The notes beneath the pieces are model-generated. The model was not told where the DNA came from. It saw only the letters and a list, made by a program, of their open reading frames with translations, and ran no database searches. Of a DNA stretch of 64,000 nt, positions 24,901 to 54,836 are shown piece after piece. Within the stretch, counting starts at the first letter, position 1; every line of letters begins with the position of its first letter. Source of the DNA: Sialis fuliginosa (lineage: Eukaryota; Arthropoda; Insecta; Megaloptera; Sialidae); assembly GCA_961205875.1 (NCBI GenBank), contig OY540813.1, forward strand, positions 7,783,001-7,847,000, given 5' to 3'. A program made the position numbers and the translations under genes.

Positions 24901-27900
24901 AAAACTTACTAAAATCTTTATCATAGCGTGTGGTTCTGACACGACCTGATCTACGAACAGGCCCACCACTTCCACGTTTTCCTCTCCGGCCTCCGCCCAT
25001 ATCACTATCATCAGATTGTAAATCTTCATCATAATCTTCGTCGTCTTCTTCAGAGCTGTTTATTAGAAAAATTAATGTTAAAACTTTTAATTTCACGGTA
25101 ACGCTAAAATCTATAAAATGATTTTGAGTATCAATAACATTTACCTAGATCCTTTAAAATCTTCATCCGAATCAGGATTATCTTCTTCAGAACTAAAATC
25201 TAAGCTAGTTAATTTTACATGCTTTTTCTTGCCCTGTTGTTTCTTTCTAATAACTACTGGTGGAATATCATCTTCTGATGAATGCACATCATCGCCTTTA
25301 ATTTCAGCTCCATCATGTGGTTCAACTACATTTTCTTTATTTTCAGCTGTTTCAGTTTCATTCGTCAGTGCTTTATTTTCCTCTGTTTCTGCATTAACGA
25401 TTGTGCTAATGTCTTTTCCTCGACCTTGATTTCCTGCTCCTTTCACTGCCTCCATTTCATCCTAATATATTGCACAATATTTATATTAGAAACACCGAAG
25501 AAGTAAAAGGGATAAAAGATCAATATTATCTCGATTATAATGCAACTACATACCTGTATTGCTGACTTTATAAGTTCATCATATTCATTGAATCGGTAAC
25601 TGCCTGCTTGTCTACGTTCTCTTAACTGATATATGGGTTCACTATCTTCTGAACTGGAACTTCCACTATCAGAAGAACCTGAGTCCTCGCTAGCAGAACC
25701 AGCTTCCTCACCACTGCTGCCTTGCTCTTTCGATGAAAGTACATTACTCAAATTTACATTTACGTAATCTAATCTTTGTTTTTTCAATATTTCAGTTTCT
25801 ATTTTCTTTTCAGCTTTGTCAAATTCTTGTAATTGAAGTTTTAAACGTGTTATTAAATTTGCCTAAAAAATAGAACCTGGTGAGTGCCCAAGGACATTCA
25901 ATAAACATGTTGAATTTAGTAATATACAGAAAAACCTTGATTTTACGGATTTAATAAATAAAATTGTTAAATGACATAAATATAAAATAAAAAATAATAC
26001 TATCATACATGTTGACAAGGAGGGCAGAACCAATCTCCTTCAGGAATAATCAGTAAAGCTGGACGTAAACAGGAACAATGCCAACCACAGTCACAGGAAT
26101 CACACAATAAAATCCATTCCGGGTGATCTGTTTTACCACAATGTTGACATGCATATTCATCTGTTTCTGCATCCGACTCGACTAAAAAAAAAGAATTGTA
26201 TTTAACCCCTTAACATTTTTCTTGAGAAAAATGGTAACAAAATGTTTTTTTTCAAAACATAATGAAACTAAATAATAAAATTTAGTAACAAAAAAAAAAT
26301 GTTATTTTCTTGCGCGTGAAAATTAATCATACCCGAAGTGCGTTCAGGTCTGGTAATTTTCGCCAGTTTAGTATGCCCTTATGGGCTGGGTGTTAAGGGG
26401 TTAATCATTATACGATTTGCACTGGCATCTCTTAAACTCTTACCTTTAGCAGTTCTAGCACGTCTAGCAGGTTGAACCGGACCTTCCACATCACTTTCAG
26501 GTGAAAACTCATGATCTGAACGTAGAGCACCAACTGGTACTTCTTCATCTGAAGGTTCTTCTTCAACTTCATCTTCTTCCTGTGAAGAGCTTGAACCGCT
26601 ACTTGATTTCCAAGGATTGGATTCATCAAATTTTAAACCCTTCTTCTTTTTTTTCTTTTTACGTTTTTTGTCTTCTATCGTATCAGTGGTAGTTTCATCT
26701 TCAGATTCGTACTTACTTATTTTCTTAATGTCTGGTTTATAATTCTAAAATATATTTTTATTTAGTTGTACATACAAAAATACTCAAAGTAAATAAATTT
26801 ACCTTATCATCATATTTTTTACGTTTTTGTTCATTTTTTAATTGAGCAAGAGTTAGTTCTTCAATTTTACGACGTTCAGCTTCTTCTTTAATTTTTATTT
26901 GTGCTATTCGCCGTGACTGACGTACACCACTTCTTGTGTTTATTTCTTCATCTAAGCTTTCATTTAACATCTCAGGATTAATATCTAAACCTAATAGTTT
27001 AAGTGCTGAAAATAATTAATATAAATTAAAATCAATTTAAAAAAATTTGATTTAATCAATTCTTACCTTTTTTTCTTGGTTGGGTTACTTTTGGAGACTT
27101 TTCTTCTACTTTAGTTTCATCCTCTACTGCAACATTTGCAGCATTTGGCTGTGTATTTCCTTTTCGACCTTTACCTTTTTTGGTAGGTCGTCCTCTTGTA
27201 ATTTTAGATTTTGTTGTGTCTTTTGAATCAACCGAGTTTTGCGATTCATTTTCTTCTTTTTCATCATCACTACTAATTGTTTCCATTCTTTGTTGTTCAA
27301 TACTCCGTCTAAGTTCAGTGTCTGGAGTTCTTTTATTTTTAGTTTTTCTGCGTTTAGCACTCGCACTTACGGTTTCGTCAGGTACATCTACTTCAATTTC
27401 ACGACTACGTTTTCTAGTGGTTGGACCCGTGGTGGATATTACATTAGATTGTTTCTTAGTACCAATGACTGAAGAAATTTTTGGTGCTTCATTATCGGAA
27501 CAAGCTAACGGATCATGTTCTGGTTCTAGTACCACATCAGGACTATCAGTATCATCGATACCTAAAACTGATTCGACAGTACGTCCTGAAGTTTTCAAAT
27601 TAGCTGAACTTTTTCTTGTTGTTCTAACACTAACAATTTTATTATTTGGTTTTTCAATTGCAGAACTTTCTTTTAATTTATTTATGTCTACACACATGAG
27701 TAAAGGTTTTGTTGGAGATACTACTATTTTGTTTGTAACAGTTACGTCATTTTTAATTTTCTTAACTTCACTTACGCCTAGAGACAGTGGATCAGACGTG
27801 TCTGTTACAATTTTATCAGAACTTAATTCTGATGGTGTTAATTTAGAATTCTTTCGTTTAACAGGAGTTAAAACAATAGAAGAATTTTTTCGTAACTCTT

Positions 27901-30900
27901 CAATTATTTTTACTGTTACATCTTTCCTATTTACATCATCTACTTTTTTATTTGTAAATTCAGTATCTTCTTTCGTTATGATTGACTCAATTTTTAATGG
28001 TGTTTCTTCATCACTATCATTTTCAGAATCATTTTCATTGAAAGTGTCCAATTCTCCATCCATATGATCAGACACATCAGAATTATCAGAATCTGCTTCA
28101 TAATTATCAGCATTGGTAGTATCCTCTCCTAAATTTTCACTGACAGTGAGACCTTTATTTAATACATCATCAGTTGAAACATTTGTTTTAGAAATATTTT
28201 CTTCAAGTTCTGCTGATCTTGACACATCTTCTTCATGGATGTTCTCGGATTCACTTTCATCTGGTTCCTGTTCTTCAGTACTTTCTTTTTCTGAATCTGA
28301 AATTGGTTTTTCAATTATATCAGTTTTAGAAATATTCTCTGTTATTTCTAATGATTTTGAAATTTTTTCTTCCAAATTAATTTTCTTTGATTCACTTTCA
28401 TCTGGTTCCTGTTCTTCAATGTTTTCTTTTTCTGAATCAGAAATCACTTTTTCAGATGTGTCTGTTGTAGATATATCTTCTTCAACTTGTAATGATTTTG
28501 ATATTTCTTCATGAATTTTCTTTGATTCACTTTCATCTGGTTCCTCTTCTTCGGTGTGTTCTTTTTCTAAATCAGAAATCAATTTTTCAGATGTGTCTGT
28601 TGTAGATATATCTTCTTCAACTTCTAATGATTTTGGTATTTCTTCACGAATTTCCATTGATTCACTTTCTTCTGGTTCCTGTTTTTTGCTGTTTTCTTTT
28701 TCTAAATCAGAAATCAATTTTTCAGACGTGTCTGTTGTAGATATATCTTCTTCAACTTCTAATGATTTTGATATTTCTTCATGAATTTTCTTTGATTCAC
28801 TTTCTTCTGCGTTTTCTTTTTCTAAATCAGAAATCAATTTTTCAGATGTGTCTGTTGTAGATATATCTTCATCAACTTCTAATGATTTTGATATTTCTTC
28901 ATTAATTTTCTTTGATTCACTTTCTTCTGTGTTTTCTTTTTCTAAATCAGAAATCAATTTTTCAGATGTGTCTGTTGTAGATATATCTTCTTCAACTTCT
29001 AATGATTTTGGTATTTCTTCATGAATTTTCTCTGATTCACTTTCTTCTGTGTTTTCTTTTTCTAAATCAGAAATCAATTTTTCAGATGTGTCTGTTGTAG
29101 ATATATTTTCTTCAACTTCTAATGATTTTGATATTTCTTCATGAATTTTCTTTGATTCACTTTCATTTGATTCCTGTTCTTTGTTGTTTTCTTTTTCTGA
29201 ATCTGAAATCAATTTTTCAGACATATCTGTTTTAGAGATATCCAATTCAACTTCTGATAATTTTGAAATTTCTTCTTCCAAATGAATTTTCTTTGATTCT
29301 TGTTCTTCGTTGTTTTCTTTTTCTAATGTATCTGTTTTAGATATTCTCTCTTTAATTTCTGATAATTTTGAAATTCCTTCTTCTAAATAAATTTCCTTTT
29401 TTAATATTTTCGATTCACTTTCATCCTGTTTCTGCTCTTCATTGCTTTCTTTTTCTAAATCTGAAACCTGTGATTCAAACATATCTGTTTTAGATATACC
29501 TTCATTAATTATTGATGATTTTGATATTTCATCTTCTAAATGAATTTTTTCTTTTGATAATGATTCACTTTTGTTCTGTTCTTCAGTGTTATCTTCTTCT
29601 GAAATATCATTATCATCTTCAATTTTATATTCTTGTGTTTGTCTGCTTTCTGTCTGTTCATTTTGAATTTCACAAATATTTTCAATAGCCTCATATTTTT
29701 CTACATCCAAGCTAGTGCCCTGTTTTTCATCTTCATCTCTTTGTAAATCAATTTTATCATTCCCCGTTTCTTTAGTTTTAAATGTATCAATTTCATTATC
29801 ATTTTTAATGCAACTATTTTTTTCTTGCAATTCACCTTTCAGAATTTCTGATTTATCTAATGGTTCGTCAGTTTCTTCTACAATCATATCATTACTTTTT
29901 TCAGAAACAATACTATCATTTGATTTACAAGTTTCAGTAGCTTCCTCTTCATTATCATTTTCATTTAAATTATCTTCACCTGAAGTAGTAGTAACTTCAG
30001 CATTTTCATTTAAACAGATATCCTTAGTTTCTTCATCAACATTACTTCTGTTTGTATCAATGCAACTATTAATTAAGTTATCTTGTAATTGATTTTCTGG
30101 ATCATTTGTTGATTGTGATGTTTCAATTTTTTCTTCCACTTCACTATTTTTACATTCGGTTTCAATTTGAGAATCAATGTTTTCTACAATGATATTATGT
30201 TCCTGATTTGTACTTTCATTTGATGATGAAACAACATTTTCTTCTGGTTGAATCGAATCTTCATTGGATTTGTTACAAGCAGTAATTTTTTCTATACCAT
30301 CATCTATACTTTTTTCATTTATTGAACATTTATCATCTGTATCTGTTATATTACTTTCTTCTAATAAACCGTCACTACTTTGTTCTAACATTACCTTTGT
30401 AGAAACATCTAATATTTCTTTGGTAGTAGTAGTAGTACCTACCCTTGTATCACTAATTATTTTTGAATTATTTTCATCACTTGCACTAGATTCTTTAACT
30501 TCAGTTATATCATTCACCTCAGATTCTGACATATTATCAGATGACGTATCAGCAATGGTTTCTTCCATTACAGATTTCTCTTCGCTGGAATTATCAATTT
30601 TTACTTCACTGTTTTCTTCAAACTGAACATCTTTTGTTTGTGAATTAGTTTCGATTTCCTTATTTATATCGGTAACTTTTGTAATATTGTCTGCATCCAA
30701 ATTTTCTTCATTGCATATTGATTTTGATTCTTCAATTTTGTTTTCTGATAAATTACTGCTATTTGTTTCACTAATTTGATTTGATAGTTCATCAACATTT
30801 TCCTCCGTAGAACTTTCAATATTTTGAATATTTACAATTTTATTAATTTTTTTAAATTTTATGTCATCGTCAAGCTTGCTTTCTAGTTTCAAATCATTAC

Positions 30901-33900
30901 TGACGAATAGTTTTTGAATTGTAATATTTTCTCTAATTAATATTTCATTTTTTTCTGATAATATTTTATTAATACCCTGAATATTATCTCCTAATAATTC
31001 TTTATTTTTAATATTTTCTTCTAGTACATTTCTTTTTACCTGAATATCATCTATAGCTGTATTAATTTCCTCTATTGAGTTTGTTTTATCTGTAATATCA
31101 ATATCCATCTTTTCTTCTTCGGTAGTTTCTCTTAAAATAGTATCATCGTTATTTGATATATCTTTAACATTAGAAGATTCATCTATTTCATTTGTACAAG
31201 TATCTTCAAATTTGTTTAAAGAAATTTCACCTTTATTTTCATTTAATACTTCACTACTTTTTGGGACACTAACTCTTTCAGAATCATTGTTCTCAGATTG
31301 ATCTGATAATTCAACTTTCCCTGGTAAATTTATTTCTTTGTCTTTATCAAATATTGAACAAATTTCTTTTAATTTTAAATCATCGCCTTTTGATATTTCA
31401 TTAAGACACTGGTTTGGTGATTCTTTAATATTTTCTGAAGTAGGTATCTCACTACAATGACTTATTTTAATGGATGTACTGGAATCAGTTTCTACATTTT
31501 CCTGAGAAGTATTTTTACTTGATACAGTCTCTATATGAGAATCAACATTTTTTACATTATTATCCACTATTTCAATTTCATTAATATTTGTATCAGATTC
31601 TTGATTCTTTTTAAGAGAATCCTGGCAAACATCTATTAATGTTTTGTCTTTTGTACCAATGCTTAGATCTAAATTTTCTTGACTGTTCAATGCACATTCT
31701 TCTTTAGCATTTTCTTGATCAAATATTCTCACATCTGAATTTTCTTCATCTACTGAAGAAGTTTTTAAAATGTAATCATCTGCTAATGCTAATGAAGATT
31801 TTGGTTCTTCAATTTTTTTTTCAGGTTCGTGAAAATCTTCGTTAATTGATTTAGATTTTTCTACATTTGATGCATCATCATATTCACTTGTATATTTATT
31901 GATTTCATCATCTAGTTGAGTATGTGATTCTTCTAGATTTTTTCCATCTTCGTCTAATGTTTTATTAATTGATTTATGTTCATTTTTATTATCAAACACT
32001 TCACTTTTGATATCTACTTCTTCAGACTGAACAATACTTTCTTTCTGTTCAATTTCAATTTCTTCTTTACTAATTCTAAGATCTATTTTTTCTAATGCAT
32101 CAATTTCAGTATCTTGTGATTTTGGTACGTTACTAACTTCTGTAGTTGCTTCATTACTTGTTTCCAATAAAACATTTTCACTGTTATCAATGTCTTTGGT
32201 ATCGTCGTGACATTCTTCTTGAGGAACATCAATATTTGAAACATCAACACCTATTTCCTTATTCTTTTCTAGCTCCGTATCTTGATTGTCTTGTTGGATT
32301 TCTTTACTAACATTTACATCACTTTTCTGAATATTACCATCTTCATTAACTAAACTGGAACATTCTTCAGCGTTTTCAGATTCCGTTCCATCTATACTAA
32401 TTTTAGAGTCTTGTTTTTTTATATGACTTTCAGATTCTATTGCTTTATTTTCTATACTTAAACTAATTACTGGAGTTATTTCTTCTTCACGAGCATTTGT
32501 TATAGGTTCTTTTAGGGTTTCCTTTTCTAATTTTCTTAAATCATCACCAGAATTTAATTCTAAATTTTCTTCATTGGATTCTATATTTGATATGTTTAAA
32601 TTTTTATCTTCATGAAAAGTTTTACTATTTAATTCTAAGGTAATTTCAACATCACTAGGCTGATAATTTTTATTTGTTTGAGGTACTATTTGGCAAGTTT
32701 CATTTAAATTTTTTTCTTCGCATTTTAATTTCACACTTTTAGGAATTTCAGAACTAATACATGTATCTTTTGACGGCTCGTCAACAATTTGCTCTCGTGT
32801 TTTATTATCAGGTTCACTTAATTTATCAGGAACATTTTCATTTATTTTTTCGTTATTCGAAAGGCATTTTTCGTTTTCACTTAACGTTGAGTCTGCTCTT
32901 TTAGTTGGCAAATCCTCTAACATGAAATCAATTGTAGCATCTATTTCATCAATAATGGCTTTAGTGTCATCAATGTTTTGTAAATGATGTTTCTTTTCAG
33001 GTGTGTTCTTACTTCCATCGTTTGGTTTATTATTTAAACTACCTGGACCAAAAAAAAACAATTGTTTTGTCGGTTCAGATATTCCATCATTTGTTTCATT
33101 TGAAACATTATCCGGCTTAGATTCTATATTTTCATTTGAACAAGATTCTTTTACAGAACTATCGTTCTCCTCAGTCACCGTTTGTAAAAATCTTTTTGCA
33201 GCAGGTAACGGTGCTACGATTATTTTATTTGACTGATCTGTTATCTCTAAATCATCATTTAATTTAGTAACATTCACATTTAAATTATCAACTGTATCAC
33301 ACGTATTTTTATAACTATCTGTACAAGAAATATCTAAATTTTTATTAATACTGCTTGAAGTTGAGTCACTTTTGTCCTCAATATTTTTATTTTCTACATT
33401 TTTACATTTAGCTGTGTTATTGCTAGTATCTTCATCTTCTTCGCTCGTATTGGCAGCCATGCAGTCAGCACCGCAACCTTGTCCGTATACATAAAAAGTT
33501 TCTTCTTCTATAGTTTCACCGACAGGACTAACAATATTATCTGGATCATAATTAATACCTTCACATTCTTTCCCTGAACCTTCTCCTCTAATTACTAACA
33601 CTGGATCTTGTATTTCTTCACCGACTTCTATATTTTTTATTTTTTTTGTTTCAGAATGTGGAGTATCTTTCAAAAGTCGTTTTCTGCCGATGTTTTGTTT
33701 TGAAACTTCAGTTTCCAATGTATTTGGTGTCACATTTAATTCAGAATCAGCATTGTAAGATGCTACACACTTCTTTAAATCTGCATTCATATTTCCATTT
33801 AACCTACTGATTACATCTTGCATTCCACTTAAAGAAGCATGCGCCTTTAAATGAGGTTTAGAGCTACCACTTGGAACATTATTTACAACTAAATTTTCTA

Positions 33901-35905
33901 ATCTTCTAATTTGATCAACATCAATATTTTTGTTTCGACGAGTTTTCCTTAAATCTACTTTTAAATTTTCAGGTTCAGAATTATCATCTATTACTTCAGA
34001 ATCAGAATGATTTTCTGCACTTGTATTACTTTCTTTTGTGTCATCACTTTTTATACTTAAATCCATTTCTTTAGCTTCTTCTGCATGCAAACTATTTTCA
34101 TTACTTTTATCTTGTTCATTTATTATACTATCTTTTTTTCTTACAACTTTATCCTCTGAAGGTGTTTCTTCTTTTACCGGCCTTTCATCTTTTACTGTTT
34201 CTTTTTCTACTGGTATGCTTTCTTTTACTAATACTTCATCTTTGGTAGAAATTTCATCCTTTATTGATAGCTCTTCTTTGGTTGAAACTTCTTCCTTTAA
34301 TTCAACTTCTTCTTTTACTGAAGTATCTTCTTTTATATTTTCCGATTCTTTTTTCTCATTAACTACATCTTTCTCACTTTTGACATCAGTAGCAGATGAA
34401 GAATCATTCTCTTTTTCAGAATCTTCTTTAAAGTTTGATTCAGATGATTGCTTGGAATTTTGGCCAGTGTCGGTAACAAGTTTATCTGATTCAATACTAT
34501 TACTGTCTTCATTTACAATTGACTCGGGACCAATCAGAGAAAGATTGTTGGATGTAAGTTGAGTTATAAGGTTTATTAAGCCCTCACGATCTCTGCAAAA
34601 AATAATTTTGTCATTACTATAAGAATTTTAAATGATTACATTACATAATTAAAATGTTTTAAAATAAAGAAATAGTTCCAATTACAAAATTATTACATTT
34701 TTACTTCTAACATACTTTGCAACAAGAGTCCATGTTTCTTCATCTACATCTTCTCGATATACACGTAGATTACAATAGTCATCTTGTTGATACCAATAAG
34801 AATGACCCCATCGATCATATCCTATAGGTTCCATTCGCAAATCTTGAACAGGCAGTTTACTTATTTCTGTTTTAAATTTTTGATTTGCGTCAAACTGTTT
34901 TTCTAATAATGTCTAAAAAAAATATAAAAAATAAAAGTTACAGTTGCTTGAAATCTAGTACATTTAGTATAAAATAAAAACAATTACCTTCAATGCACGA
35001 AGTTTGACTGTGACTCGAGCTTTTTTATATCCGAACCGTTCGATTTCCCATGCATCTTGATTGGAGTAACTGTGGCAAAACTTCACTAACGCTCGCTCCC
35101 ATCTCTCACTATGAACAGATTTTCGGGCTTTCCTCAATAACGTTATATGGAAATCAACTAATGGTGTTGGCACTAAAAATTACATTAATTTATTTAAAAA
35201 TAATCACTTATATACCATCCATATTTTAGGAATTAACTTGAAAAGAATTTGACTAAATACATAAATAAAATAAATATTTTTATCGATAACTTAAAAACTG
35301 ATAACACACATAATTATAAAACACGAAAAGTTGTTTTATACTGAATGCATATTAATAAGACATAAAAGTTATGACAGTTTGTAACACATTTTATATTGAC
35401 CTTGATGAACAAAAAAACAATAAAATATGTCCATTCTTAATTCATAAAACTAAATACAAAAATTTTACTGTGTGTTAAAATAAGATTCACAAAATAAATA
35501 AGAAAATTAAAAAAAAATGTATGCTCTAAATTTAAAAATATTTGATAACTTATATTGGGGTCTATACACCCCTGATTACTAATGAGAGGTGTTTGTTTAT
35601 ATGAAACAACTAATACAATATTTTTATCGTCATTTAAAAATTAAATGAAGTATTTCCAAATGGAATAAATTATTTTTAAATATAGTTTCGATGACATTAA
35701 GTCAAACGATCATTAGACAAATTGAATTAATACTGTATGCCTTAAGACATTGAGCAGTACCTTCTTCAGAATTTTCGATCATTTCTTGAAGTTGTTGAAA
35801 ATTGGGATACAATATGCCACATGATTTGCCAAATTTTTCCAAAAAACAGCAAATAATTGCAAAATTAGGATCACAAACACAAGACGCTTCATTATCTGAC
35901 GCCAT
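21938..35905 (-). CDS. RSF1: Remodeling and spacing factor 1 (RSF1), giant form
   Basis: Fifteen exons join in phase to 3,996 residues: 35761-35905, 34988-35172, 34716-34912, 27067-34592, 26803-27005, 26444-26744, 26009-26181, 25554-25862, 25145-25461, 24910-25055, 24736-24844, 24451-24679, 23218-24235, 22642-23142 and 21938-22569. RSF1 pairs with an ISWI ATPase to space nucleosomes. The N-terminal block (DPNFAIICCFLEKFGKSCGI), the WHIM-type region (LVDFHITLLRKARKS to EPIGYDRWGHSYWYQQD) and the PHD finger (CQHC...CDSCDCGWHC...CPPC, exon 26009-26181) identify it. Human RSF1 is about 1,440 residues; the excess lies in one 7.5-kb acidic exon with internal repeats. The C-terminus is Pro-rich. The ATG at 35905 is the first in frame with the conserved block. 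Confidence 0.93.
27067..34592 (-). other. RSF1: Giant acidic exon of RSF1 (7,526 bp)
   Basis: A single uninterrupted exon encodes about 2,500 residues dominated by Glu, Asp, Ser, Asn, Lys, Ile and Thr, with almost no aromatic or Cys residues, so it should be intrinsically disordered. Flanking splice sites are good: acceptor TTTTTTGCAG and donor AAAAAAAG|GTAAGA, with phases matching neighbours on both sides. Vertebrate RSF1 also has a long acidic middle, but not of this length. The complementary strand has long chance frames, as expected from its biased codons. Confidence 0.85.
28160..29600 (-). repeat. RSF1: Coding tandem repeats in RSF1, 40-45 residues per unit
   Basis: About eleven units follow the pattern EKLISDLEKEN, then EESESKKIHEEI, then SKSLEVEEDISTTDTS. 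The four best units lie at exactly 120-bp spacing (28691, 28811, 28931, 29051, at GTTTTCTTTTTCTAAATCAG on the plus strand); others are 135 bp with an inserted EQEPD segment. Unit length is always a multiple of three, so the frame is kept. Confidence 0.9.
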
Positions 35906-36754: not shown

Positions 36755-37949
36755 ATGAAGACTCAAAGTAAGTGTGTCATTAATATACTCTTTTGAAATA
36801 TTCTTTAATGTAAATTTAAAATTTAATATAAATGTACATATTTGTTTAGAGAACGGAAACACATTAAAATATATCAGTCTTGTTACATTAACTTTACAAA
36901 ATGCTTTATTGGGACTCAGTATGCGATTCTCTCGAACTCGAGTTGGAGATATGTTTTTGTCTTCAACAGGTAATATTGTATCAGATAATAGTATACTACA
37001 AAGTCCAGTTCTATAATAATTTAAAAATATTTTAGCTGTGTTTATGTCTGAAGCAGTAAAACTTGTTACATGTTTACTAATGGTATATTTAGAACAAGGA
37101 AACTTTAAAGCTTGGATCAATCACTTGCATGCAACTGTTATCCGACAACCAGTCGACACTCTCAAAGTTTGTGTTCCTTCTTTAGTATACATAATTCAAA
37201 ATAATTTATTGTATGTGTCAGCATCTCATTTAGATGCAGCAACATATCAGGTAAAAATTATATATTTTTAAATAAATTGTGATATAAATAACTATACTTT
37301 ATGTTTTTAGGTGACATATCAATTGAAAATTCTCACAACAGCAGCATTTGCAGTTGTCATTTTACGCCGAAAGTTGTTACAAACTCAGTGGATCGCTTTA
37401 GTTGTGTTAATCGTGGGTGTAGTCTTAGTTCAACTTGCTGATAGTACTTCTCCATCAAAAAATGCTTTTCCAGATCAAAATCGTCTTCTTGGATTCAGTG
37501 CTGCTTTAGCAGCTTGCTTTTTATCTGGTTTTGCTGGAATATATTTTGAAAAAATAATCAAAGGTTCTGATATATCAGTATGGATGCGTAATGTACAATT
37601 AAGTTTTCTTTCTATTCCTATTGGCTTGTTTACTTGTTTTATAGTTGACGGCCATATAATAAACGAAAGAGGTTTTTTCTTTGGTTATGATTTATTTATT
37701 TGGTATTTGATTTGCTTGCAAGCTGGAGGAGGATTAATTGTTGCAATGGTAGTTAAATATGCCGATAATATTTTAAAAGGATTTGCTACATCTCTAGCTA
37801 TTATAATTTCTTGCATTGCATCAATATATATGTTTAATTTCAACTTGACATTGCAGTTTACAGCAGGTGCCTTTTTAGTTATTTGTTCGATATTTTTATA
37901 TGGTTACGTACCTAAAGTTCCAGAACATACGTCAAAAATAAACATCTGA
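36755..37949 (+). CDS. Ugalt: Golgi UDP-galactose transporter (SLC35A2/Ugalt-like)
   Basis: Four exons, 36755-36767, 36850-36969, 37036-37250 and 37311-37949, join in phase to 328 residues. The first coding exon has only 13 bases (Met-Lys-Thr-Gln plus one base). The protein is an SLC35A nucleotide-sugar antiporter, moving UDP-galactose (insect forms also UDP-GalNAc) into the Golgi in exchange for UMP. Family hallmarks are LTLQNALLGLSMRFSRTR, the highly conserved PVDTLKVCVPSLVYIIQNNL and SASHLDAATYQVTYQLKILT, and YADNILKGFATSLAI near the end. About ten hydrophobic spans are present (for example WIALVVLIVGVVLVQLA). It is full length. Family members A1, A2 and A3 are alike, but the wording is closest to Drosophila Ugalt. 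It is convergent with the cytochrome b5 reductase gene. Confidence 0.96.
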
Positions 37950-52283: not shown

Positions 52284-53486
52284 ATGCTTTACAAAGGCTT
52301 TACTGTAGTAATTTTTCTGATATTTGTGGTTCTCACAAACGCGTGGAGTAAGTGCACATTTAATATTTATTTAGCTTTTAAAGTGAATTTATGTAGATCT
52401 ATTTTTTACTATTTTTTATTAGGAATCCGCAGAAACTAGGAACCGTTTGTTTATCTATATAAATTTTATACCGATTAAGATGAAATTTGGTATACCCAAG
52501 AACAGAAATTATAATATTTTTGAAAAATAATTTTTTTGGACCCCCTTTCTATAGACTGAAAAGTATATTACATTTTTTGTTTCACTTAATCCATTAAGTT
52601 GTCTTTAGTAGGTCTTCTAAAATGAAACAAAAAATATTATGTGACCTTTTGATTTTAACCATTCAGTCATGAATTATTTGCTTTTAAATGTCGTTATCAT
52701 AGCCCCAACCCCCTCTAATTTCTAAACTTTTTTTTCACTTAATCCATTAAGTGGGTTGTTTTTAGATAGGTCTCCTAAAATGCAACAAAAAATATTATAT
52801 GACCTTTTGATTTTTACTCTTCAGTCACGAATTATTTGCTTTTAAATGTCGTTTCAGAGCATCAACCCCCTCTAATTTCTAAACTTTTTTTTCACTTAAT
52901 CCATTAAGTGGGTTGTTTTTAGATAGGTCTCCTAAAATGCAACAAAAAATATTATATGACCTTTTGATTTTAACTCTTCAGTCACGAATTATTTGCTTTT
53001 AAATGTCGTTATCAGAGCCTCCCCTCTCTAATTTCTAAACTATCAATTAAAAATATCTAAAAAAAAAACAACAAAATGTAGCTTTTAATTAGTACTTTCA
53101 GTGAAAATTATATCGAACACTGTAGCAAAAATATTTTATAAAAAAATTTGAAATAACTTTTTTTACAAATCGTAATGACTGTGATGTTTTATTATATGTA
53201 TATTGTTTTTATTTAGCTCGACCTGAAGTAGGACATCCATCGTTATGTGAACCAAATCAACGTTTCTTCAAGGGATGTAACGTATGTAAGTGTAATGCGG
53301 TGTTCACACCAAAGAAAACAAAACAGCAACACGGTGTTTGAAAACACGTCGTATTTAAAAATACATAGGCTTTATTGCACTTTTGTCAAAAAGACACGAT
53401 GTTGCTGTTTTGTTTTTTCGGTCTGAACACGGCATAATAGCAGAGGAACAGGTACAGTTTCTTGCACATATGTATGTGCTCTATAG
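52284..53486 (+). CDS. Small secreted pacifastin-type protease inhibitor, exon 2 carrying a MITE
   Basis: Exon 1 (52284-52347) encodes a signal peptide (MLYKGFTVVIFLIFVVLTNA). After an intron, exon 2 starts at 53217 and encodes LCEPNQRFFKGCNVCKC, the first part of a pacifastin domain (C-x9-C-N-x-C-x-C). A 139-bp MITE begins two codons later. As the genome stands, translation runs into the MITE and stops at 53339-53341. Downstream of the MITE the frame gives SCTYVCAL and a stop at 53484-53486, matching the family's closing C-T-x3-C. Pacifastins are small insect and crustacean serine-protease inhibitors acting in haemolymph. Whether the MITE is spliced out, or the gene is dead, cannot be told from sequence alone. 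Confidence 0.75.
52564..53041. repeat. Tandem repeat, about 156-bp unit, three copies
   Basis: CCCTCTAATTTCTAAAC recurs at 52711, 52868 and (as CTCTCTAATTTC) about 53024. Between them lie TTCACTTAATCCATTAAGT, CCTAAAATGCAACAAAAAAT and GAATTATTTGCTTTTAAATG in each unit. The second and third copies are nearly identical and the first has diverged. The array fills the intron of the pacifastin-type gene. Confidence 0.88.
53296..53434. mobile_element. MITE inside the pacifastin exon, 139 bp
   Basis: The left end TGCGGTGTTCACACC pairs with inverted TGCCGTGTTCAGACC on the right, and the arms share AACAAAACAGCAACA further in. TAA flanks both ends (53293-53295, 53435-53437). The 3-bp TAA duplication fits PIF/Harbinger-type insertion. 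Confidence 0.85.
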
Positions 53487-53540
53487 GGATCAAGAAACTG
53501 GTAAAAAATATGTTTTCATATATGTATATTGATTATTTAT

Positions 53541-54836
53541 AAATAAATAAATTGTATTTTTTGTTTTTCAGGAAAAATATCCAGTGATTATGCTGATAGT
53601 ATTCTTCTTTAAGTAAGTATAAGATTAAAGCAAAGTTAAGATGAAGTATAATCATTTTTATTAACATTGTTTTTATTTAAATATTTTAGGAACTGTGTTA
53701 AAGTTATACAAGAAAAAAATACTTTAACCGGTTAGTGCAATATAATATAAAATGTAAGAGAATGCAAAAAATACAAAATGTTGGATTATATTCATTATTA
53801 CTATAATTTTATTATGCTAATGGTGGAAATTATTGATACGTGCTAATTATTGATTGTTTATCCTATATTATAGATTATATATAGATTACGTATAAGAAAG
53901 TCCCGTGGCTCCCATCGCAGATATTTTCTTTTACTTTATTTTTGAGGTTTCACAAGAGATTTCATGCGTTTGCACTTTGCATTCATTATATTATATATTT
54001 GCATATTATTGACATAAGACTAAATTTCATCTGATTCGATTAACTGTGTGAAATATTCGAGCAACGATCCCTTCCTTCTCACCGCATCTAAAATATAATG
54101 GAAGTAGTTAAACTTGCATACAAATAGCTCAATTGTCTCTCTATATTTTACATAGTCCATGCCATTACTTTAATAAAAACATATGAGATCTTCATGAGAG
54201 AATCTTAATTCTAGGGGTGTAATGACTGTAATAAAAAAATCATAAAATATAGTTAAATGGAAATAAAATATAAGTATCCTTTATACGATTTCTAGAAGCA
54301 AATTAATCGCCGTTTAAAATTATATTTTAAGGAGGTTATTCTAGTAATTATTAGTCAAGTGTAGGTATATATTAGAAAATTAATGTAAACATGAAAAAGT
54401 TTGTATTTGATGTACGTTCAAACAAAAATCGAACAATGTTACCAAACTTATGAACAAAAATTAATTATTACAAAAAAACGATGCGGTAAAAGTATTAATC
54501 TATCATACAAAACAATTATTAGAATTTAATCTTGGATTTGGTTTATAGAACAACCCCTTAAATTAAAAAATCTTAAATTCAATAAATAAAAGTTTTCGAC
54601 ATTTCTTTTTTATTTTAGTTTAAACTTATATTAAAAACAATTTATAAGACAAAATAATAAGTTATGAATTTGTAAATGATAAATAAATAAATTAATTTTA
54701 AGAAAAGTATTTTTAGATATTCTTCAGAAGGTAAACAACGTGAGTACAATATAGATGTAATAAATCATGACAGTGTGTAACATAAACGTCCAAACTCAAG
54801 TCCATATAATCTACTTTTTCATTAACTTTCTGCAGA
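53541..54836. other. Non-coding AT-rich region
   Basis: AATAAA-like sequences near 53541-53549 could end the pacifastin transcript. No further exon is supported. Confidence 0.4.

Follow-up and report, generated by a model that had tools for sequence, protein, structure and literature searches.

In the gene for the Culex Bin-toxin receptor, the insertion of a transposable element (TE) reportedly activates cryptic splice sites and gives rise to a new spliced mRNA. PIF/Harbinger elements are marked by duplications of three bases, TAA or TTA, and their plant Tourist-like members are defined by terminal inverted repeats (TIRs) of 14-25 bp whose 5' end reads G(N)5GTT (PMC2213677). Among the pacifastin genes, the most complex one studied by the time of PMC2689174, from Trichoplax, has 42 domains, and in Trichoplax each domain is divided by a true intron that falls between Cys3 and Cys4. 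The six cysteines of a pacifastin domain are bridged as Cys1-4, Cys2-6 and Cys3-5 (PMC2689174).

The DNA analysed here, called the window, is a 64-kb stretch (C5:7783001-7847000) of the 392-Mb genome of Sialis fuliginosa, which is assembled in 20 contigs. Elsewhere in this genome 82 stop-free pacifastin-domain matches were found by pattern in 81.5 kb of fetched sequence, many of them close together. This large expansion covers C13:5.647-5.702 Mb, C13:8.350-8.400, 16.284-16.290, 2.777 and 15.397 Mb, and places on C10 and C6 (L039-L050). The window itself also holds, on the minus strand, a stop-free frame of 2523 codons (27059-34627) with tandem units of 135/120 bp (28184-29275), beside a PHD-finger-like exon at 26006-26209. 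PHD and RSF1-like are the names that we presume for this exon and the adjoining frame. A UDP-galactose/UDP-GlcNAc transporter exon on the plus strand (37311-37946) is 66-81% identical to the 120 listed of 3411 relatives, and many of its named relatives are insects of several orders.

Judged by its sequence, the host is a single-domain pacifastin-type gene whose domain exon is interrupted by a MITE. Its splice sites were scored with donor and acceptor weights derived from 76 donors and 81 acceptors of the genome's own pacifastin exons. These weights represent the exons of one family, with the best AG and GT chosen for each exon without transcript proof, a choice that favours the reference sites but does not affect the comparison with the window's GTs and AGs as a whole. 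The acceptor weights reach back only 20 bases from the AG into the intron, so that a more distant pyrimidine tract is left uncredited. The coding part of exon 1 (52284-52347, plus strand) encodes MLYKGFTVVIFLIFVVLTNAW plus one base and looks by eye like a signal peptide. Its donor GGA/GTAAGT scores 8.7, the 36th percentile of the reference donors, and together with an acceptor of 9.5 gives a sum of 18.3 for the phase 1 intron that follows (intron 1, GTAAGT...TTTAG, 52348-53216, plus strand). Within intron 1 lies a repeat (52575-53180) of three tandem units of 157 bp (52575-53041) and a dispersed tail (53042-53180). When the DNA search was done with 53042-53295 and the best 40 of 1904 candidates were scored, the tail was matched at 84-95% in 41 other rows. 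No empty-site paralogue was found among these. All rows besides the window match the intron-1 repeat, which could have crowded out weaker exon-2 matches.

Exon 2 is present in two halves on the plus strand. The 5' half (53217-53292) starts with (A)CT CGA, ends in CEPNQRFFKGCNVCKC and carries Cys1 to Cys4, the codon of Cys4 ending at 53293. The 3' half (53438-53486) carries Cys5 and Cys6 and ends in RGTGTVSCTYVCAL. The host frame thus reads ...CEPNQRFFKGCNVCKCN upstream of the element and ...SRGTGTVSCTYVCAL downstream of it, followed by the stop codon TAG at 53484-53486. When the element and one TAA are left out, the halves join into one frame of 63 residues, and both match one inhibitor domain. 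CEPNQRFFKGCNVCKC shows the motif Cys1-x9-12-Cys2-Asn-x-Cys3-x-Cys4 (PF05375; PMC2689174) with a spacing of x9, and the motif Cys4-x2-3-Gly-x3-6-Cys5-Thr of PMC2689174 appears as CNSRGTGTVSCT, with x3 and x5, only in the joined frame. The final Thr-x3-Cys6 of the motif as given in PMC2689174 is one residue short in this gene, since CTYVC has x2. We therefore call the gene pacifastin-type and do not treat it as a strict member of the motif. The short Cys5-Cys6 spacing is unusual but not unique in the genome: among the 82 other domain matches the distance from Cys5-Thr to Cys6 is standard in 62, one residue longer in 17 and one shorter in 3.

The Pfam model PF05375 has a gathering cut-off of 27.9 bits and scores 28.0 on a joined piece of 42 residues, 26.6 on all 63 joined residues and 24.8 on the frame that runs into the element. 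The initial annotation, which had recognised a pacifastin-type domain interrupted by the element, was borne out in this respect; the spliced form that it proposed scores 25.6 bits. Among the window's 127,900 anchored starts only 6 show the tail pattern G...CT..C, four of them in the gene's own tail and two at one other place, and therefore the in-frame 3' half is not there by chance. A second open frame (+1) also runs through exon 2 and was judged by inspection to be due to chance. Solved pacifastin inhibitors match the host domain weakly (best E 0.0042). A protein search with all 83 candidates scored found no close paralogue in the genome, the off-locus exons showing 27-62% identity and the best-scoring one 54%. 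Outside the genome, no candidate shared three 5-residue words with the host protein in a database that does contain insect proteins. Downstream of the gene, possible micro-exons with fair splice sites are seen at 53572-53612 and 53690-53730, which may reflect 3'-UTR introns or another gene. The pair 53501/53571 scores 19.9, fair sites lie at 53613, 53689 and 53731, and an AATAAA is present at 53542 within the candidate intron 53501-53571.

The interrupting element is a foldback MITE of 139 bp on the plus strand, spanning exactly 53296-53434, and is flanked by TAA duplications at 53293-53295 and 53435-53437. Its length and the duplication agree with what had been annotated at first. Aligned to its own reverse complement, the MITE shows 71% identity over its length, and the outermost bases match at 13 of 15 positions. 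The ends are TGCSGTGTTCASACC and the TIR is TGCCGTGTTCA; compared with the plant consensus G(N)5GTT, the TIR is present and GTT stands at positions 7-9, but T replaces the first G. In the inhibitor frame the MITE contains a premature TGA at 53339-53341 (plus strand). As RNA, the element is predicted to form a very stable hairpin (-54.8 kcal/mol; shuffles -27.9 +/- 3.0), which includes the T-rich 3' arm in its base pairing. According to this fold, the pairing would more likely hide the T-rich tract than help splicing. A hairpin may also draw splice sites together.

The MITE is a member of a high-copy family with young members and not a rare element. At least 42 full-length rows with 99-100% identity were obtained, its own copy included, when the best 40 of 1635 first-look candidates were scored. 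These are the best-scoring copies, and they show recent copies and not the average age of the family; partial and more diverged neighbours came up in the same search. Two other listed copies, C4:15338978-15339116 and C4:12244285-12244423, are 100% identical to the MITE of the window. No further copy was found in the 64-kb window, and among 50 pacifastin-related loci only L051 and L055 carry the MITE, both of which are the window's own place. Identical TWA duplications flank 27 of 30 fetched copies (TAA in 18 and TTA in 9, the window copy included), whereas the remaining three have ATA/ATA in one case and unequal flanks in two. The base two positions upstream of the TWA is a pyrimidine in 30/30 copies, the base two positions downstream is an A in 24/30, and the site in the window, TGTAATA, fits this target context. 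With its TAA/TAA flanks the MITE shows the 3-bp TTA/TAA target-site duplication (TSD) of PIF/Harbinger MITEs. We class it as PIF/Harbinger-like on these sequence features, because of the TAA/TTA duplications and the GTT at positions 7-9, though the first base is T and not G.

Several copies lie next to each other. At L081 (C1:16234100-16234770), four copies are arranged head to tail at positions 54-618 with a single shared TAA between them and a period of 142 bp, and three of the four differ from the MITE of the window only at position 68. Second copies also adjoin L026, L028 and L035, and at L029 the second copy is about 36 bases away. The family is starting to form tandem arrays.

The initial annotation had suggested that the MITE may be spliced out as a newborn intron (53292-53451, plus strand), with GTAATG at 53292 as the donor and AACAG at 53447-53451 as the acceptor. 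Both sites are present, and the frame arithmetic is correct: the splice would keep all six cysteines and give CKCTVSCTYVCAL. The splice scores, with a sum of -3.6, do not make this a credible intron. The donor 53292 (AGT/GTAATG) scores -1.9, at the 0.01 quantile of the 76 reference donors (lowest -2.2), and 49% of the GTs in the window score as well. The acceptor 53451 scores -1.7, under all 81 reference acceptors (lowest 3.4), and is equalled by 40% of the AGs in the window. The pair falls under all 20,000 sampled sums of random reference pairings (median 20.2, 1st percentile 8.9).

We then enumerated all 153 GT-AG pairs across the element. The tail frame is restored by 20 of them, and six of these keep the six cysteines. 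The best six-cysteine pair, 53334/53451, reaches a sum of 1.4 and would exonise part of the MITE, and the best frame-restoring pair, 53286/53451, reaches 3.1 with five cysteines. No pair with credible splice sites in the element, the TSD or the adjoining exon, as described for Introners, was therefore found across the element, as 1.4 and 3.1 compare with 8.9. The strongest U1-like site close before the MITE is TAT/GTAAGT at 53286-53291 (plus strand), with a weight-matrix score of 4.7 and a U1 duplex of -4.9, compared to -2.4 for 53292 and -5.9 for the donor of intron 1. It sits in the Cys-Lys-Cys codons, and its use would cost one of Cys3/Cys4. The donor 53282 (GTATGT) scores 8.0 with the weights, within the reference range, but its U1 pairing is only -1.4, and its use would cost two of Cys3/Cys4.

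As a check against chance, we inserted the element in silico at each TWA of the 82 domain exons, 243 sites in total. A cysteine-sparing in-frame GT-AG pair arose at 157/243 sites in the same orientation and at 140/243 in the reverse. In the same-orientation control the median best score was -3.5, with 95/157 sites at -3.6 or above and none at 15. Since such pairs arise by chance at most TWA sites, the pair 53292/53451 is what chance would lead one to expect.

Whether other copies behave as introns was tested with 30 fetched copies out of the 42 near-identical ones listed, the one in the window among them. After removal of the element and one TSD by script, the open reading frames (ORFs) across the junction were compared with those at 1500 control positions. 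Their median length was 57.5 at the copies and 54 at the controls, and only one copy of the 30 (L023) exceeded the 95th percentile of the controls. The printed ORFs of L028 and L029 read through the second MITE copy. Seven of the 14 printed ORFs (L023, L018, L017, L034, L015, L038 and L016) were run against Pfam and had no match above the cut-off, the sole match having 15.5 bits against a cut-off of 24.1; the seven were among the longer ORFs, with the host gene and the MITE-derived frames set aside. By their sequences, the 30 copies examined, a small part of the MITE family, give no sign of an Introner family.

The reading that we favour, and consider likely from the sequence, is that the 139-bp MITE disables this copy of the gene and was inserted recently. 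A PIF/Harbinger-type transposase would have inserted the MITE by cut-and-paste at its preferred site T-N-TWA-N-A (TGTAATA in this gene), and so recently that the two host parts still form a single reading frame. The pre-mRNA would not be spliced across the MITE, and the unspliced frame would take 14 residues from it and stop at the TGA. The predicted product has 62 residues with four of the six cysteines and is devoid of Cys5 and Cys6, so that the bridges Cys1-4, Cys2-6 and Cys3-5 could not all form. The loss would probably be tolerated because many other pacifastin domains remain in the genome, and the insertion may be polymorphic. It had been noted at first that the flanking codons show no other damage. 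This holds in so far as the host halves contain no further stop or frameshift, but not for Cys5-Thr-x2-Cys6, which is one residue short. The intact halves are in keeping with a recent event, and they also fit an allele that is spliced and still functional. It also counts against a disruptive insertion that the Pfam score does no more than reach the cut-off and that the donor 53282 beside the MITE is in the reference range.

If the MITE and a few flanking host bases were instead spliced out via 53292/53451 to give CKCTVSCTYVCAL with six cysteines, the correct frame arithmetic, the T-rich tract that the MITE supplies and the known recruitment of splice sites from the adjoining exon by Introners (PMC9860276) would all find their place. 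We regard this as highly improbable, as both sites are of a strength that nearly half of the GTs and two fifths of the AGs in the window reach, their sum lies under every sampled reference pair and cysteine-sparing pairs are common by chance. Moreover, about 30 bases separate the end of the T tract from the AG, and the tract is base-paired within the RNA hairpin; the ORFs across the junction at the 30 copies are like the controls, and seven of the longer ones lack a Pfam match above the cut-off. That the MITE is already removed as a newborn spliceosomal intron in some transcripts with the six cysteines kept, either by 53292/53451 or by partial exonisation via its own donor 53334, is very unlikely as well. 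If true, an animal PIF/Harbinger-like MITE would have been caught at intron birth in a gene of a kind that, in the insects studied, carries its domains undivided in one exon. An intron that joins GTAAGT 53286 or GTATGT 53282 to an AG past the MITE is unlikely, but deserves more weight: both donors are within the reference range, and joining 53286 to 53451 would bring the tail back into frame with five cysteines. However, the AGs at 53440-53457 are under all 81 reference acceptors, the best pair sum with them is 6.3 and the U1 pairing of 53282 is poor. Such aberrant splicing, with one or two of Cys3/Cys4 lost or a frameshift, would still mean a loss of function. Taken together, the recent silencing that the initial annotation held as its fallback fits the splice scores and the chance control better than a new intron does.

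The MITE may also have hit an exon that was already dead. With its short Cys5-Cys6 spacing, the gene may already have been degenerate when the MITE arrived; it is also isolated on C5 and removed from the clusters on C13, and much of its intron 1 is filled by the repeat. The lack of a further stop or frameshift, the sound splice sites of intron 1 and the recurrence of the short spacing in 3/82 other matches argue against such a pseudogene, which we hold to be improbable. With still less confidence, the locus might toggle and not decay, if precise excision of the MITE can bring the gene back in certain cells or offspring. The matching TAA duplications here, the TWA duplications at 27/30 copies and the recent activity suggested by the identical copies would permit this. 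Precise excision is described as general for Tourist-like MITEs (PMC4561436), and one TSD was kept in 48/97 mJing excisions (PMC6850418), but these data come from rice and yeast assays. An ancestral intron at the position of the MITE is unlikely, since the insect genes published in PMC2689174 have whole domains in one exon. The 82 domain matches in the genome are all continuous as well, but the search pattern required this and would miss split domains.

As a type of finding, a MITE inside an exon is nothing unusual. Here the example is clean and apparently young, the exon that it interrupts codes for a member of a large inhibitor family, and near-identical sister copies occur throughout the genome. 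The locus is a ready test of how insect splicing deals with a newly arrived foldback MITE, and it shows that frame arithmetic alone is no proof of a new intron, because most TWA sites in small cysteine-rich exons give a cysteine-sparing GT-AG pair by chance.

As in the case of the Culex Bin-toxin receptor, a coding exon of an insect gene contains a TE; a new spliced mRNA is reported there. The insect pacifastin precursors described in PMC2689174 share with the host gene the signal peptide in exon 1 (putative in the host gene), the one domain per exon and the pattern C-x9-C-N-x-C-x-C-x3-G-x5-C-T. The host gene differs from them in its last spacing of x2 and in the exon interrupted by the MITE, which stands after Cys4 and not between Cys3 and Cys4 like the intron of Trichoplax (PMC2689174). 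The Introners of PMC9860276 are also non-autonomous DNA elements with TSD and TIR inside coding exons. They are described as introns in many genes and can recruit splice sites from the adjoining exon; no other of the 30 MITE copies was recognised in a coding exon, and no credible site was found beside the one in the window. Also close are mPing, mJing and other Tourist-like (PIF/Harbinger) MITEs, which are likewise short and non-coding, with a 3-bp TWA duplication and near-identical copies. The MITE of the window differs from mPing and mJing in the T as the first base of its TIR in place of G, in the foldback over nearly its whole length and in its insect host. The TIR of mJing, GGCTGTGTTCG, has 8/11 positions in common with that of the window MITE, including GTT at 7-9, and mJing also disrupts a gene, HTD1 (PMC6850418).
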